A stretch of 64,000 nt of DNA. It comes from Xylanimonas oleitrophica (GTDB lineage Bacteria > Actinomycetota > Actinomycetes > Actinomycetales > Cellulomonadaceae). A program made the translations under genes and the position numbers. Positions 21,581 through 37,864 of this stretch are shown one piece after another. The stretch lies in assembly GCF_003244315.1 (NCBI RefSeq), contig NZ_QKWH01000005.1:1-64000 (forward strand), read 5' to 3'. The notes beneath the pieces were generated by a model, which did not search any database, was not told the DNA's origin, and worked only from the letters and a program-made list of their open reading frames with translations. How positions within the stretch are numbered: the stretch's first letter is position 1; each line of letters starts with the position of its first letter.

Positions 21581-21641
21581 CGTCGTGGGCGGGAGGAGTG
21601 CCGGGACCCTGAGGGTTGCGGCACGCCTCCCGCCCACGACG
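21581..21641. terminator. Bidirectional terminator between glsB-like gene and aldo-keto reductase
   Basis: 16-bp perfect outer stem with a nested smaller hairpin (TGCCG/CGGCA) inside the 29-nt loop, between convergent genes. Confidence 0.8.
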
Positions 21642-33409: not shown

Positions 33410-33814
33410 GTGGACGAGATACAGCCGTGGCCCAGCGACTGGCTGCGCGGGGTGCTCGAGGTGTGCGTGCTGCGCGTGCTCGCCGACGGCCCCACCTACG
33501 GGTACGCCATCACCGCCGCGCTGGCCGAGGGCGGTCTGGGCACCACCAAGGGCGGCACCCTCTACCCGCTGCTCAAGCGGTTCGAGGCCGCCGGGTGGGT
33601 CAGCACCGAGTGGCGCCCCGGAGACGGCGGCCCCGGCCGCAAGTACTACGACCTCACGGACGCCGGCCGGGCCGTGCTCCACGAGCGCTCGGCGCAGTGG
33701 CTCGCGTTCTCCCGGGCCACCAGCCGGTTCGTGGCCCACGCCGCCCCCGGCGGGACACGGCAGCACAGCACCGAGGACAGCACCGAGCACGGCACCACGG
33801 AGGCACGACGATGA
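33410..33814 (+). CDS. PadR-family transcriptional regulator
   Basis: 134 residues. The winged helix (LRGVLEVCVLRVLADGPTYG, KGGTLYPLLKRFEAAGWV, GGPGRKYYDLTDAGRA) fills the first ~100 residues; a Ser/Thr/Glu/His-rich tail follows. It overlaps the next gene as ATGA. Such PadR/HAAS-protein pairs are a recurrent actinobacterial and firmicute module in which the membrane partner is repressed by PadR. Confidence 0.87.
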   Translation: MDEIQPWPSDWLRGVLEVCVLRVLADGPTYGYAITAALAEGGLGTTKGGTLYPLLKRFEAAGWVSTEWRPGDGGPGRKYYDLTDAGRAVLHERSAQWLAFSRATSRFVAHAAPGGTRQHSTEDSTEHGTTEARR

Positions 33815-34626
33815 TCACCAGGTTGCGGCAGCGCGCCCACGAGAACCGCTACGAGATCGAGCGCGCGCTCGCCCCGCACGTGGACGAGCGGTGGGCCGAG
33901 TCGTTCCTGCTCGAGCTGCGCCTGCAGGGCGTGGGCGGGGACGACATCGGGCAGGCGCTGGCAGAGGTGGACTCGCACGTGGCCGAGAGCGGCACCCCCG
34001 CCGACGTCGCGTTCGGCGACCCCGCGGCCTACGCCCGCAGCCTCGAGCTGCCCCAGAGCGAGCAGCAGGCCGGACGGTCGGTCCTCCAGATGCTCCTGCC
34101 GAACGCGGTCTCGTTCGCGGGGATGATGCTCGCGATCACGTCAGCACCCGCCGTCGCCCGCCAGGAGGACCTCTCGCTCACGTGGGGAATCCTGACGGCG
34201 GTGGCGCTCGGCATCGCCGTGATCACCGCCCTCCTGCGGTGGACCGACCCCGTCGTCCGCGCCGTCGTCAACCACCCGTTCCGAGCGTGGCTGGCCAGCA
34301 TGGCGGCCATCGCCGTCGTCGTGGCACCCAGCGTCGCCGGCCTCACCACCGACCTGGTGCTCAGCCGCGAGGCGGTGCACATGTCGGCGCTGCCGGTGCT
34401 GGTCGCCGGCGTGCTCGCCGTCCTCGTGGTCGCAGCGTGGAACCTGCGCCCCTCCGAGCTGGTCGAGGACCCGGTGGTGCCACCGCTGCCCGCCGCAGGC
34501 GCCGGTGCGGGCGGACGCAGGCGGCAGCCGACCAAGGGTCGGGGTGCCGCGATCGTCGTAGCGCTGTCGACGCCGGTCGCGACGGTGGCCCTGGTCGCGG
34601 TGTCCTGGTGGGCCGCCACGCGCTGA
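33811..34626 (+). CDS. HAAS-domain membrane protein, PadR partner
   Basis: 271 residues. The N-terminal ~85 residues form a helical HAAS-type domain (HVDERWAESFLLELRLQG, DPAAYARSL) as found next to PadR regulators. About six membrane helices follow. The start overlaps the padR stop by 4 bp. The helical domain may sense or contact the regulator; its physiological role is unknown. Confidence 0.75.
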   Translation: MITRLRQRAHENRYEIERALAPHVDERWAESFLLELRLQGVGGDDIGQALAEVDSHVAESGTPADVAFGDPAAYARSLELPQSEQQAGRSVLQMLLPNAVSFAGMMLAITSAPAVARQEDLSLTWGILTAVALGIAVITALLRWTDPVVRAVVNHPFRAWLASMAAIAVVVAPSVAGLTTDLVLSREAVHMSALPVLVAGVLAVLVVAAWNLRPSELVEDPVVPPLPAAGAGAGGRRRQPTKGRGAAIVVALSTPVATVALVAVSWWAATR

Positions 34627-34634
34627 CCCCTTCT

Positions 34635-34698
34635 CGCCGACGGCTGCGGAGAGTCACGGAGCTCGGGCCAGCTGCGTGACTTTCCGCAGCCGTCGGCG
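34635..34698. repeat. Long palindromic intergenic repeat, copy A
   Basis: 23-bp arms with one G-U mismatch (24 with the outer C-G pair) around a 16-nt loop that can fold further. The arm begins GCCGACGGCTGCGGA and contains GTCACG. A related element at 37030-37101 shares GCCGACGGCT-R-CGGA and GTCACG. It can act as the terminator of the padR/HAAS operon. Its right arm ends 1-2 nt before the -10 of the next gene. Confidence 0.7.
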
Positions 34699-34711
34699 GC
34701 AGAGTGGGCGC

Positions 34712-35776
34712 GTGACACCGGAGTCCACCACCGCCCCCGCCGCACCAGCCGCCTCACCCGCGCCCGCAGCGCCCGCTCCGCTCGGCCCACCCCCGCCGTA
34801 CGACGACGAGCTCGCCGCCTGGCTCGCGACCGCCCCGCCGACGGGCACGATGCCCACCCTCGACGAGCTGCCCGCCGTGCACGCCGCGACGGCGGCGCTC
34901 GGCCGCCTCTCGGCGAGCGACGAGCACCTGGCCCGCGACGGCGCGTTCGCCGTCGGGCACCGCACCGTGCCCGGGCCCGACGGCGCCCCGGACGTCACGC
35001 TGCTCGTGTGCCGGCCCACGTCGGTGCCCGACGACGTCGCCACGCCCGTGGTGTTCCACGTGCACGGCGGCGGGATGGTCTTCGGCGACCGGGCCACCGG
35101 CATGGACCTGGCCCTCGACTGGGGCCAGGCGCTGGGGCTGACGATCGTGTCGGTCGAGTACCGCCTGGCGCCCGAGCACCCGTACCCGGCACCGGTCGAG
35201 GACTGCTACGCGGGCCTGGTGTGGACGGCCCAGCACGCCGCCGAGCTGGGCGTGGACCCGGACCGGCTGGTGGTGGCGGGCGGCTCGGCGGGCGGAGGGC
35301 TCGCAGCGGCCACCGTGCTGCTGGCCCGCGACCGCGGCGGCCCGGCCGTGGCCGCCCAGCTCCTCCTGTGCCCCATGCTCGACGACCGGAACGACTCGGC
35401 GTCGGCCCGCCAGCTCGACGGGCTGGGCATGTGGGACCGCACCGCGAACGAGCTGGGCTGGCGCGCGTACCTCGGGCCCCTCCACGGCACCGGCGACGTG
35501 CCCCCGTACGCGGCCCCTGCGCGGGCCACCGACCTGTCGGGGCTGCCGCCCACGTTCCTCGACGTCGGCTCGGCCGAGACGTTCCGGGACGAGACGGTGG
35601 CGTTCGCGCAGCGCATCTGGCAGGCCGGCGGGCGGTGCGAGCTGCACGTGTGGCCCGGCGGGTTCCACGGGTTCGCGGGCACGGTGCGCTCGGCACGCGT
35701 CTCGCAGGACGCCCTGGCGGCGCCGGTCAGCTGGCTGCGGCGGGTTCTGGCGCCGTCGGCCCCGCCGGCACGCTGA
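34712..35776 (+). CDS. Alpha/beta hydrolase, hormone-sensitive-lipase family esterase
   Basis: 354 residues. After a Pro/Ala linker the HSL-family oxyanion motif FHVHGGGMVFG appears, then YRLAPEHPYPAP, the nucleophile Ser in VAGGSAGGGLA, the Asp in DVGSAETFRDE and the His in GGFHGFAG. Probably a short-chain ester or lactone hydrolase. The GTG start at 34712 is supported by CAGAGT (34700-34705) 6 nt upstream. Its last 50 bp overlap the convergent YibE/F gene. Confidence 0.88.
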   Translation: MTPESTTAPAAPAASPAPAAPAPLGPPPPYDDELAAWLATAPPTGTMPTLDELPAVHAATAALGRLSASDEHLARDGAFAVGHRTVPGPDGAPDVTLLVCRPTSVPDDVATPVVFHVHGGGMVFGDRATGMDLALDWGQALGLTIVSVEYRLAPEHPYPAPVEDCYAGLVWTAQHAAELGVDPDRLVVAGGSAGGGLAAATVLLARDRGGPAVAAQLLLCPMLDDRNDSASARQLDGLGMWDRTANELGWRAYLGPLHGTGDVPPYAAPARATDLSGLPPTFLDVGSAETFRDETVAFAQRIWQAGGRCELHVWPGGFHGFAGTVRSARVSQDALAAPVSWLRRVLAPSAPPAR

Positions 35777-36977
35777 CCTCACCCACCGGAACGGGCTCCG
35801 CCGTCGGGCCCGGCACCGCGAGCGCCGCGATCCCGGTGGTGGCGGGGATGGCGAGCACCAGGCCGATGGACCCCACGAGGGTGCGCACGATCTCCTCGGC
35901 GATCTCGTTGGAGGACAGGGCGTCGGCGACGGGCTGCTCCATGAGCCACAGGTTCATGAGCACGGCCAGCGCGGCACCCACGTAGGCGAACGCCATCGTG
36001 TACACGGTGGAGGCGATGTGGTCGCGGCCGATGCGCATGGCGCGCGCGAACAGGACGCGACGCGGGGCGTGGGGGGCGAGCTCGCGCAGCTCCCACACGG
36101 CCGACGCCTGGGTGATGGTGACGTCGTTGAGCACGCCCATGCCGGCGAGCACGAGCCCGCACAGCGCGATCTGCTGCAGGGACAGGCCGGGCACCATCTG
36201 GGGCAGCCAGGCGGCGCGCTCGTCGGCGGCTCCGGTGACGCGGGCGGCACCGATGGCCCAGGTGCCGATGCCGGCGGTGAGGGCGAGGCCGACGAGGGTG
36301 CCGAGCAGCGCCGTCGTGGTGCGGGTGGTGAAGCCGTGGGCGAGGTAGAGCACCACGAACATCACGGCGGACGACGTCACCAGGGCCACGGGCAGGGCGC
36401 TGTGGCCGGCCAGCAGGGCAGGGACGGTGAACAGGAGGAACACGGCGAACGCGAACCCGAGGCCCGCGAGCGCCGCGAGGCCCCGCCACCGTGCGACCAG
36501 GAGCACCACGAGCACGAACGCGACGGCCAGGAGGCCCAGGGGCGCCTCGCGCTGGAAGTCGATGAACGCGTACGGGGCGGGCAGGTCACCGATCTGCGTG
36601 ATGTGGAGGGCGACGACGGTGTCGCCCGGCTGCGGTTCGAGCGTGCCGCTGGACCACTGCATGCGGGAGGTGCCGCCGTCGGGCAGCTCGACGGGGAACG
36701 TGCCCGTCTCCGCGTCCCACGGCCCGGTGACGGTGACGTCGACCAGGCTGCTGCCCTGCGCCACGACCGGCTCGCGCGCGGGGACCTCGTCGGCCGCCGG
36801 CCACAGGGCGAACGCGCCCCAGACCGTGGCCAGCAGGGCCGGCAGGAGCGCGACGGCGAGCACCACGCGGGTGCGGAGGGAGGCCGGCGCGGGGCGCGCC
36901 GACGCCGGTGCGGCGGCACTGCCCGACGGTGCGGCGGCGCTGTGATCGAGGTGCGTGTGCAGGTGTCCGGCGCCCAT
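35727..36977 (-). CDS. YibE/F-family membrane protein
   Basis: 416 residues. A His-containing cytoplasmic N-terminus (GAGHLHTHLDH) precedes one helix and a ~100-residue extracellular beta domain (VTVTGPWDAETGTFPVELPDG, DTVVALHITQ). About eight membrane helices follow, with YibE/F signatures VVLYLAHGFTTRTTTALLGT and GMGVLNDVTITQASAVWEL. Function is unknown; members sit near metal or stress genes. Its 3' end overlaps the esterase gene on the other strand by 50 bp. Confidence 0.87.
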   Translation of the reverse strand: MGAGHLHTHLDHSAAAPSGSAAAPASARPAPASLRTRVVLAVALLPALLATVWGAFALWPAADEVPAREPVVAQGSSLVDVTVTGPWDAETGTFPVELPDGGTSRMQWSSGTLEPQPGDTVVALHITQIGDLPAPYAFIDFQREAPLGLLAVAFVLVVLLVARWRGLAALAGLGFAFAVFLLFTVPALLAGHSALPVALVTSSAVMFVVLYLAHGFTTRTTTALLGTLVGLALTAGIGTWAIGAARVTGAADERAAWLPQMVPGLSLQQIALCGLVLAGMGVLNDVTITQASAVWELRELAPHAPRRVLFARAMRIGRDHIASTVYTMAFAYVGAALAVLMNLWLMEQPVADALSSNEIAEEIVRTLVGSIGLVLAIPATTGIAALAVPGPTAEPVPVGEVSVPAGPTAPEPAAAS

Positions 36978-37029
36978 GGGCGCCAGGCTCGCACGGGACG
37001 CGGGCCGGGTGGCCGACCCGCGCCGACCA

Positions 37030-37101
37030 CCCCCGCCGACGGCTACGGATCGTCACGCAACCGGGGCGGGTTGCGTGACGATCCGTAGCCGTCGGCGGGG
37101 G
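37030..37101. repeat. Long palindromic intergenic repeat, copy B
   Basis: A 33-bp perfect stem with a 6-nt loop (GGGGCG), the longest perfect palindrome in the window. Its arm shares the core GCCGACGGCT-R-CGGA and GTCACG with copy A at 34635-34698. It lies between the NmrA-like gene and the YibE/F gene (both minus strand) and would also terminate the former. Confidence 0.75.
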
Positions 37102-37109
37102 GCCAGGCG

Positions 37110-37751
37110 TCAGTAGGCGACGTTGATCTGCTCGCGGTGGTGCGCCGCCTTCTCGGCCTCGTCGACGACGGCCAGGCCGAAGTCGGCGCCGGAGATCTCC
37201 GACTTGCCCTCGGCGTCGAAGATCGCGACCTCCCCGCCGACGCGGTAGGTACCACGAGGCTCGCCGGGGTTGTAGGCGCCGTAGGTGGCGGCCGGGCTGA
37301 CGAACACCCAGTCGAACGACTCGGGCGTGCCCTGGAGCCACGGCAGCAGGGCGGCGACCTCACGGGCCTCGCCGGCGAACTCGGCGGGCACCTGGTCGGT
37401 CTCCACGACGCGCGGCCCGCCCTCCTCGGTGCGCAGCGTGCTCCAGCCGCCCACGAGGAGGAAGCGCGCATCGGCGGCCTGTGCCTGCTCGACGACGCGG
37501 CCGTAGGCCTCGCCCAGGTGGCCGGCCAGCTCGCCGCGCGGGGACAGCGCACCCACCACGACGTCGGCGCCCGCCACGGCCTGCGCCACGGCGTCGCCCG
37601 TGAGCACCTCGCCCTGCACGTACCGGACGCCCTCGACGGGCTCGGCGGGGGTGCTGCGGCTCAGCGCGGTGACCTGGTGGCCTCGGCGCGCGGCCTCGGC
37701 GACGATCGCGGCGCCCGCGTACCCGGTGCCTCCGACGACGGTGATGTTCAT
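37110..37751 (-). CDS. NAD(P)-binding protein, NmrA/atypical SDR type
   Basis: 213 residues. The glycine motif VVGGTGYAGAAIV and a Rossmann fold (QVTALSRS, ADVVVGALSPRG) are clear, with no classical Tyr-x3-Lys catalytic pair. Proteins of this size act as NADPH-dependent quinone or flavin reductases or as redox sensors. It diverges from an HxlR gene, which probably regulates it, an arrangement usual for electrophile-responsive HxlR (HypR/YodB-like) regulators. Confidence 0.86.
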   Translation of the reverse strand: MNITVVGGTGYAGAAIVAEAARRGHQVTALSRSTPAEPVEGVRYVQGEVLTGDAVAQAVAGADVVVGALSPRGELAGHLGEAYGRVVEQAQAADARFLLVGGWSTLRTEEGGPRVVETDQVPAEFAGEAREVAALLPWLQGTPESFDWVFVSPAATYGAYNPGEPRGTYRVGGEVAIFDAEGKSEISGADFGLAVVDEAEKAAHHREQINVAY

Positions 37752-37809
37752 GGGGATCGCCCTTTCCTGAGTCGTCTCGCCACCGGCCCTTCCGGCGCGG
37801 TGGCCTCGT

Positions 37810-37864
37810 TGGTTACCGTAGGAGACCAGCACTCCTAGGGGAAGAAGGCACTTCGTGGTAACCA
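37810..37864. promoter_or_regulatory. HxlR operator candidates
   Basis: TAGGAG-N7-CTCCTA (37819-37837) is a perfect 6-bp inverted repeat within the 103-bp divergent region. A second, wider inverted repeat TGGTTACC (37810) / GGTAACCA (37857) flanks it, the right arm covering the HxlR start codon. Either could bind the HxlR dimer. Confidence 0.5.

Follow-up and report, generated by a model that had tools for sequence, protein, structure and literature searches.

Palindromes E1 and E2 and their copies in the genome

Why should two intergenic sites with unrelated neighbours carry nearly the same long palindrome? The window analysed here, a 64,000-bp stretch of one contig of Xylanimonas oleitrophica, contains two such elements, neither assigned to a strand. 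E1 (34635..34698) is a lone palindrome of 64 bp with 29-nt arms and a 6-nt loop, and E2 (37030..37101) is a lone palindrome of the same family, here designated family 1, with a core at 37034-37097 and arms lengthened to 33 nt. In an inverted-repeat search, the 33-nt arms of E2 (37030-37062/37069-37101) were 100% complementary and the 29-nt arms of E1 (34635-34663/34670-34698) 93% complementary, and E2 and E1 ranked first and second, respectively, among the 30 inverted repeats of the window with arms no more than 60 nt apart. The shared arm GCCGACGGCTRCGGANNGTCACG occurs four times in the window, once in each arm, compared with 0.09 occurrences expected from shuffles. Relative to shuffled sequences, the folds gave z values of −7.2 and −8.4 for the two strands of E1 and −12.9 and −12.2 for those of E2. 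No match to Rfam was found anywhere in the window.

Gene context was obtained with a home-made codon-model caller, by which gene starts are approximate. E1 starts 8 nt past the stop of a plus-strand gene (33811..34626) with a weak DUF1129 match under its curated cut-off, and lies 13 nt ahead of the called start of a plus-strand alpha/beta hydrolase gene (Abhydrolase_3; 34712..35776). The ORF preceding the former gene (33410-33814) is presumably PadR-like. E2 is located 8 nt from the stop of a minus-strand gene for an NAD(P)H-binding protein (37110..37832), whose 3' end faces it, and a minus-strand gene for a YibE/F-like protein (35727..36977) lies between the hydrolase gene and E2. The Pfam matches of the four genes adjoining E1 and E2 are to different families, and one of these matches is weak. 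A sequence-only reading of this locus had described two related long palindromes with a common arm core, unrelated flanking genes and an identity exceeding what a terminator needs. All of these points were borne out, the likeness of the arms being far above the requirement of a stem.

That reading had also suggested a genome-wide search with the core, and further copies were found. The family-1 arm, with up to three mismatches allowed, gave 12 matches in the genome compared with one for a reversed control pattern, and reading of the sequence assigned all 12 to two-armed places. A covariance model located family 1 at eight places, with palindromes of 62-64 bp. Seven copies form a gap-free alignment of 64 columns; the eighth (C11:435215; E = 1e-6) is divergent and spans 63. 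Twelve of the 29 base pairs have changed on both sides, compensatory changes that keep the symmetry, and the covariation score of the palindrome was reached by none of 500 shuffles. In the copy C27:21698 most of the inner stem is disrupted, and its fold (z −2.3) was equalled by 4 of 200 shuffles. What copies in relatives share with those here is chiefly their length and the outermost ~14 nt. An exact-pattern search of a genome contig collection returned 13 stretches, four from Isoptericola/Puerhibacterium records and nine, one per record, from unrelated taxa, the latter being taken for chance or other hairpins; 16 stretches in IMG/VR matched a pattern and none was confirmed.

At six of the eight family-1 places, 8-38 nt separate the palindrome from the stop of a facing gene (median, 13 nt), and the corresponding median for 20 places of a second family, described below, was 17.5 nt, with a range up to 107 nt. 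The 43 family-1 places across genomes, which include weak ones of uncertain kinship (g10, G184, G209 and G210) and one 42-bp variant, comprise 17 convergent, 16 tandem and 4 divergent positions and 6 overlapping a called ORF. The 33 strong hairpins found in 484 kb of this genome were distributed as 14 convergent, 13 tandem, none divergent, one within a gene and five at an edge, and the other strong hairpins of the genome are unlike E1 and E2 in sequence. The gene-end position fits the proposal that the palindromes are re-used as terminators, but the T-tract expected after the stem is absent, with no terminator-like site in the region 34400-37400. Terminators of high-GC actinobacteria often lack a T-tract, and the palindromes may be used as terminators.

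Nuclease genes between palindromes

Family 2 has 18 two-armed copies in this genome. The only pair less than 7 kb apart is separated by 1.1 kb, and the sole called gene between them encodes the protein P0004. P0004 matched MTES_1575 (E = 1e-8) with 35.6 bits, just below the cut-off of 38.2, and DUF559 with 25.6 bits, above the cut-off of 20.6, and no AbiEi_4 domain was found in it by a Pfam scan. P0004-type matches (E 1e-15) were present in 96 of the 221 genomes of the taxonomic family. The window itself holds a divergent family-2 palindrome between convergent genes (21581..21641, no strand assigned; arms 90% complementary), one arm of which fits the family-2 pattern at three mismatches. A third palindrome family gave 12-33 arm matches per genome in five genomes, and its reversed control gave none.

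In the relatives G003, G027 and G186, family-1 palindromes bracket a gene for another protein, B, which has an AbiEi-type DNA-binding domain and a predicted Vsr-family (MTES_1575/DUF559) nuclease domain. No B-type nuclease was found in this genome, and the same query had matches in 162 of 221 relatives (E 1e-8). Because of this absence, the link of E1 and E2 to a nuclease runs through relatives only. Model R1, built from seven copies of this genome only, detected four of the six palindromes bracketing B, namely two in G003 (C34:158007 and C34:159179, both E = 1.7e-7) and one each in G027 (C42:7043, E = 2.9e-6) and G186 (C17:29743, E = 1.9e-6); the remaining two were seen as hairpins only. The locus that is arranged here as MFS-palindrome-nucleotidyltransferase is arranged in G003 and G027 as MFS-palindrome-B-palindrome-nucleotidyltransferase, and in G186 B lies at a different locus, again bracketed by two palindromes of the G186 type.

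Seven B proteins were scanned: AbiEi_4 was above its cut-off in five, and the MTES_1575 and DUF559 matches were all below the Pfam cut-offs (best, 25.2 and 16 bits, respectively). D250, E264, D266, G267 and H271 are invariant in 23 aligned B proteins. In each of four loci read, a single gene was called between the palindromes, unlike the AbiEi/AbiEii gene pair of an AbiE type IV toxin-antitoxin system. For the most part, the nuclease genes occupy syntenic sites common to several genomes: the 70 B rows fell into 26 site clusters, some possibly over-merged because a match between one flank and the opposite one could be scored as two-sided. The palindrome-nuclease unit therefore moves rarely. The B-type protein P0001 had no match in plasmids, profile A4 had none in PDB, and no described role for B-type or P0004-type proteins was found in the literature searched.

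Among nuclease loci retrieved from the taxonomic family, matching flanks were found at 54 of 68 of the B type, a non-random sample made up of the best-scoring matches and 40 picked from the match list and omitting the duplicates L183 (= L145) and L185 (= L147), and at 25 of 29 P0004-type loci, which omit L269 (contig-end overlap). The remaining loci, 14 and 4, respectively, had no matching flanks. Among controls, matching flanks occurred at 1 of 90 genes drawn at random from this genome and at 0 of 30 YibE genes, and YibE/F was accordingly rejected as the linked gene. A long hairpin was also present in the flank of 48 of the 54 and 22 of the 25 passing loci, and long hairpins stood on both sides at 34 of 68 B-type loci, 19 of 29 P0004-type loci and 0 of 30 controls. 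The palindromes in the nuclease flanks had median lengths of 59 and 61 bp. The ends of the hairpins, compared by motifs picked post hoc, followed the nuclease clade: the P0004-type motif was carried by 43 of the 45 hairpins in its own clade and by 6 of the 90 in the other, and the B-type motif by 54 of 90 and 2 of 45, respectively. In a phylum sample, the flank test was passed by 13 of 30 loci (short matches, wider flanks, uncontrolled sample), including at least one contig-end artefact (L291) and other passes that are perhaps other repeats.

The likeness of left and right palindromes had a median of 34 within a locus compared with 10 between loci of one site, and in only 5 of 14 loci was a palindrome matched by its own partner at least as well as by any palindrome from other species at that site (the 14 being those of the 20 loci of this site whose flanks were neither poor nor truncated). 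These values at most hint that the two palindromes of a locus evolve strongly in concert. Lone copies were best matched by the nuclease flanks of their own genome in 14 of 21 cases (B-flanking copies excluded), and most lone copies of G027 fit the nuclease flanks of G003 better than those of G027.

Turnover of the palindromes and competing explanations

Comparison with relatives, made for sister-family palindromes of the close species G206 and G207, revealed both presence/absence and family swaps. Of 10 hand-picked palindromes, in regions selected because differences were suspected there and compared by eye, three were absent in G207, three were replaced by another family in the same slot and four were conserved; palindromes were aligned in six of the 10 fetched G206 regions, and the other four offered no counterpart that could be aligned at the palindrome. 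The three empty slots in G207 indicate gain or loss of palindrome sites. Inspection by eye of these empty sites and of the flanks of the listed copies revealed no target-site duplication, and no cut site was seen. In G003, the slot orthologous to that of E2 holds a 78-bp palindrome of other sequence.

At the level of sequence, the palindromes have a fixed build, and most of the fetched nuclease genes have matching, largely palindromic flanks. Lone copies of the same families occur in the same genomes and differ between close species, and in relatives a nuclease gene lies between two palindromes where one palindrome stands here. These observations point to nuclease-linked palindromes as a so far undescribed type of small mobile DNA. 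We consider it probable that E1 and E2 are lone palindromes of a two-part system, in which a unit of palindrome, nuclease gene and palindrome is accompanied by dispersed lone copies. The best reading of this system is that it is REP/RAYT-like and built on an unrelated nuclease. The nuclease has a predicted C-terminal Vsr-family domain (MTES_1575/DUF559, PD-(D/E)XK-like), to which one of two clades adds an N-terminal AbiEi_4 winged helix. It may recognise its own palindrome as a hairpin, cruciform or duplex and cut or nick there, after which repair or strand transfer would copy the palindrome elsewhere, so that spread would be driven by the nuclease. The landing sites that persist would be gene ends, at which a strong hairpin does no harm or can serve as a bidirectional terminator. 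The family-1 nuclease gene would have been lost from, or never present in, this genome, leaving E1 and E2 as orphans, while family 2 retains its nuclease. More tentatively, at somewhat less than even confidence, this may be a distinct class of mobile DNA whose long palindromes are recognised and dispersed by their own Vsr-family nuclease in place of a transposase, with several families per genome overwriting each other at shared slots behind genes and giving the host terminators.

Homing is the less likely course but deserves weight. Here a palindrome or terminator already in place would be cleaved by the nuclease and converted during repair templated by a palindrome-nuclease-palindrome donor or by another palindrome copy, with no insertion at a new site. 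The exchange of families at three of the ten hand-picked slots and the other palindrome in the G003 slot agree with it, Vsr-like homing enzymes exist, and one palindrome here compared with palindrome-B-palindrome in relatives is the outcome expected from target conversion. On the other hand, three of the ten slots hold no palindrome in the other species, and the donor would bear its own targets on both sides. It is improbable that the palindromes of a selfish nuclease are passive, flanking and protecting or silencing the gene and being spread by ordinary recombination and not by the nuclease. The nuclease genes mostly stay at shared sites with lone copies scattered, and deletion between two palindromes would account for the single one at C24:86389, but the tracking of nuclease clade by the P0004-type ends is hard to explain without recognition, and repeats of ~60 bp are short as substrates for recombination by the host.

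We regard as decidedly improbable that these are plain terminators, kept for ending transcription and alike by chance or local copying, with the nuclease genes merely insulated. Strong hairpins of this genome and family-1 places across genomes do favour convergent and tandem gene ends. However, the arm identity and the different sequences of the other strong hairpins here, the matching nuclease flanks compared with YibE and random genes, the swapping of families between species and the absent T-tract all argue against it. The fixed length and the compensatory changes preserving symmetry would also suit a regulatory operator or DNA uptake signal bound by a host regulator or the uptake machinery. 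This is very improbable indeed: the palindromes lie after genes more than ahead of them, nuclease genes are flanked, and lone half-sites of family 1 are absent at three mismatches, on which ground a DNA uptake sequence was rejected.

If the preferred reading, a palindrome-dispersing nuclease system, is true, a second, unrelated enzyme class has REP-like anatomy, and palindrome plus enzyme is a recurring solution. It would also give a testable activity to common actinobacterial proteins, the B and P0004 types, and could account for the origin of some gene-end hairpins in high-GC actinobacteria.

Likeness to known systems

REPs are widespread bacterial repeats, and RAYT (TnpA-REP), a tyrosine transposase, is their linked enzyme. 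The sequence-only reading had suggested a mobile or amplified, REP/MITE-like palindrome. The eight copies, their position at gene 3' ends and the turnover in a sister family agree with this, but no Y1 transposase was found, no target-site duplication was seen by eye, and the linked enzyme is a predicted Vsr-family nuclease, a point beyond the reach of that reading; the REP/MITE label is apt by analogy only. Y1 transposase (PF01797) was found in 0 of 10 genomes with R1-type palindromes, this genome included, compared with 5 of 14 named genomes, including E. coli, in the positive control, and membership in classical REP/RAYT was therefore rejected. The proteins sought in whole genomes were PF01797 and the two nuclease types. 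By eye, no GTAG/CGTC tetranucleotide was seen at the feet of E1 and E2, the two elements inspected. Vsr-like (EDxHD) homing endonucleases such as I-Bth0305I are encoded by a small selfish gene and have a Vsr-fold nuclease. The genes described here are likewise small and encode a predicted Vsr-family nuclease, but they are free-standing ORFs between two palindromes, with lone copies in addition.

According to PMC3733652, palindromes in a REPtron flank one enzyme gene, with lone copies elsewhere in the genome; in species with several repeat families the enzymes are repeat-specific, and the enzyme gene is deletable. Enzyme and repeat are described as co-evolving in PMC8266576. An enzyme gene flanked by the repeat, together with scattered lone copies, is likewise seen for family 2 here and for family 1 in G003, G027 and G186. 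Unlike the REPtron enzyme (HUH/Y1), the enzyme here is a predicted Vsr-family nuclease, and the palindromes are ~60 bp long, compared with 20-40 bp for REPs (PMC3733652), and lack the GTAG/CGTC tag at E1 and E2. Long flanking repeats and a dispersed family also recall the TIRtron, whose flanking repeats are long, some self-complementary, and form modest dispersed families (PMC3733652); however, TIRYT enzymes (TIR-associated tyrosine transposases) retain the HUH motif and catalytic tyrosine, whereas the nucleases here match MTES_1575/DUF559. No link of MTES_1575/DUF559 to palindromes appears in the passages of PMC3710099 consulted or in the literature searched. The former source describes the MTES_1575 REase as having a Vsr REase fold and as fused to HEPN, transglutaminase and wHTH domains, and the catalytic domain is common to these MTES_1575 REase/DUF559 proteins and the nucleases found between the palindromes.

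Palindromes in the window and the genome

Of the 30 inverted repeats that a search of the window returned, the palindromes at 34635-34698 (E1) and 37030-37101 (E2) took the top two ranks, and the fold energies of both strands of each were far below those of shuffled sequences. Their arms are related, as the sequence-only reading had claimed: GCCGACGGCTRCGGANNGTCACG was present in every arm (4 matches in the window versus 0.09 expected). A hydrolase gene and a YibE/F gene are bracketed by E1 and E2, and no sign that the pair moves as a unit was seen at 34635-37101. The same reading had proposed a repeat family, and a genome-wide search with the arm pattern indeed gave 12 matches versus 1 for the reversed control; all 12 fell at two-armed places when the sequence was read at each. 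A covariance model of this family (family 1), built on 7 copies, recovered 8 places in the X. oleitrophica genome (contig:position): C24:34635, C24:37034, C24:86389, C23:1130, C25:46133, C25:56620, C27:21698, in which the inner stem is largely broken, and the divergent C11:435215. The 7 aligned copies occupy 64 columns with zero gaps, and the arm starts lie 39 nt apart in all five places with a pattern match in both arms. Symmetry was preserved by paired changes: both sides had changed in 12 of 29 pairs, 93.1% of cells were paired, and the covariation score was equalled by none of 500 shuffles. Such changes could reflect either selection or copying within the hairpin.

The facing gene's stop codon was 8-38 nt away in six of the eight places, and two of the eight sit between divergent genes. 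Regarding the suggested re-use as terminators, the position after genes makes it likely that the palindromes serve in this way, but the T-tract is absent. In the taxonomic family, the model matched 12 of 221 genomes at E 1e-4, that of X. oleitrophica included; because no more than 24 candidates per genome were scored, copy counts are lower bounds. The 43 places gathered across genomes, weak ones among them, were convergent (17), tandem (16), divergent (4) or overlapping a called ORF (6). An outer arm, GCCG(A/G)(C/T)GGCTA, is common to most copies of genera g1, g4 (Puerhibacterium/Isoptericola variabilis) and g21 (Isoptericola); the version varies by genome, the inner half being the part that differs.

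Nuclease genes between palindromes

Comparison of the genes flanking the copies revealed that C24:86389 lies between genes for an MFS transporter and a nucleotidyltransferase (domain names from proteins of the relative G003), the latter presumably the CCA-adding enzyme. At the orthologous locus of G003 and G027, the order is MFS transporter, palindrome, gene B, palindrome, nucleotidyltransferase. Gene B, a predicted Vsr-family nuclease gene, encodes 333-355 amino acids in three genomes. AbiEi_4 scored above the cut-off in 5 of 7 scanned B proteins, MTES_1575/DUF559 matches were weak, and an NCBIfam scan gave nothing useful. D250, E264, D266, G267, H271 and R283-Q284-N285 are invariant in 23 aligned relatives. 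A search of the X. oleitrophica genome for gene B found none; in G186 the gene is at another locus, flanked by two G186-type palindromes.

Further palindrome families were seen in a survey of 484 kb of the X. oleitrophica genome. The commonest, family 2, has 18 two-armed copies and 4 single-arm matches genome-wide, some of the 4 perhaps due to chance; a further, divergent member lies at 21581-21641 of the window. Only one pair was less than 7 kb apart (spacing, 1.1 kb), and the sole called gene inside it, P0004, encodes a DUF559/MTES_1575 nuclease by domain match. The link between nuclease and palindrome predicted from gene B is thus found again at P0004. Twenty family-2 places were tandem (10), convergent (8), divergent (0), gene-overlapping (1; C23:290643, a single arm, perhaps chance) or at an edge (1), with the facing stop codon at a median of 17.5 nt. 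A possible third family, of the GGCAGAAGGTCC type, occurs twice in the 484 kb (L129 12602-12673 and L131 3232-3291).

A flank test was performed using the best ungapped match (+1/-2) between the left and right 350-bp flanks plus 60 bp within the gene, with a threshold of 18. It was passed by 27/30 and 28/40 B loci (54/68 unique loci) and by 26/30 P0004-type loci (25/29 once an artefact was removed), versus 0/30 YibE/F controls and 1/90 random X. oleitrophica genes. A long hairpin was also present in 48 of the 54 passing B loci and 22 of the 25 passing P0004-type loci. Long hairpins occurred on both sides in 34/68 B, 19/29 P0004-type and 0/30 YibE loci; 5/30 YibE loci had one on one side. Palindrome ends, judged by motifs picked after inspection, varied with nuclease clade. 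In a phylum sample, 35 of 296 genomes had an A4 match and 13 of 30 fetched loci passed; some, such as L288, L300 and L301, had clear long palindromes by eye, and others were doubtful or artefacts. Long palindromes also flank the nuclease gene of L289 by eye (score 17, just below threshold). These four loci are outside the taxonomic family, and the system may therefore extend beyond it.

Turnover and possible mechanism

Nuclease genes grouped into site clusters (26 among 70 B rows; 8 among 30 P0004-type loci), indicating that most are passed on at a fixed site, with occasional moves. The turnover of lone palindrome copies is faster. Between G206 and G207, whose aligned blocks are mostly 90-95% identical, 10 hand-picked palindromes compared by eye included 3 absent in G207, 3 swapped for a different palindrome in the same slot and 4 conserved; these proportions are not rates because the regions were chosen for suspected differences. 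No target-site duplication was seen by eye in this comparison. The E2-orthologous slot of a Puerhibacterium-type genome holds a different 78-bp palindrome (L092 1233-1310), as if families replaced one another. By eye, the repeat unit often consists of a palindrome, a short spacer and a partial extra arm (L156, L159, L162, L167, L170 and L352), an arrangement that gives it a direction.

Most likely, each nuclease would recognise the palindrome that flanks its gene, which would then be spread by repair or strand transfer in a REP/RAYT-like manner; we infer the cleavage step, the substrate and the copying route. The main alternative, homing-like conversion of hairpins already present, agrees with the family swaps. 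Among the matches listed, judged by title and opening abstract, no paper linked an AbiEi/DUF559/MTES_1575/Vsr nuclease to palindromes, the scope being outside most subscription journals and bioRxiv. Counts of palindromes in three Actinomycetota are reported in RepRanger (PMC12306157), whose available text mentions neither RAYT nor nuclease. As far as the consulted parts of the REP/RAYT literature describe that system, its anatomy is matched by the nuclease-palindrome loci, whereas its enzyme is not (PMC3733652; PMC8266576).
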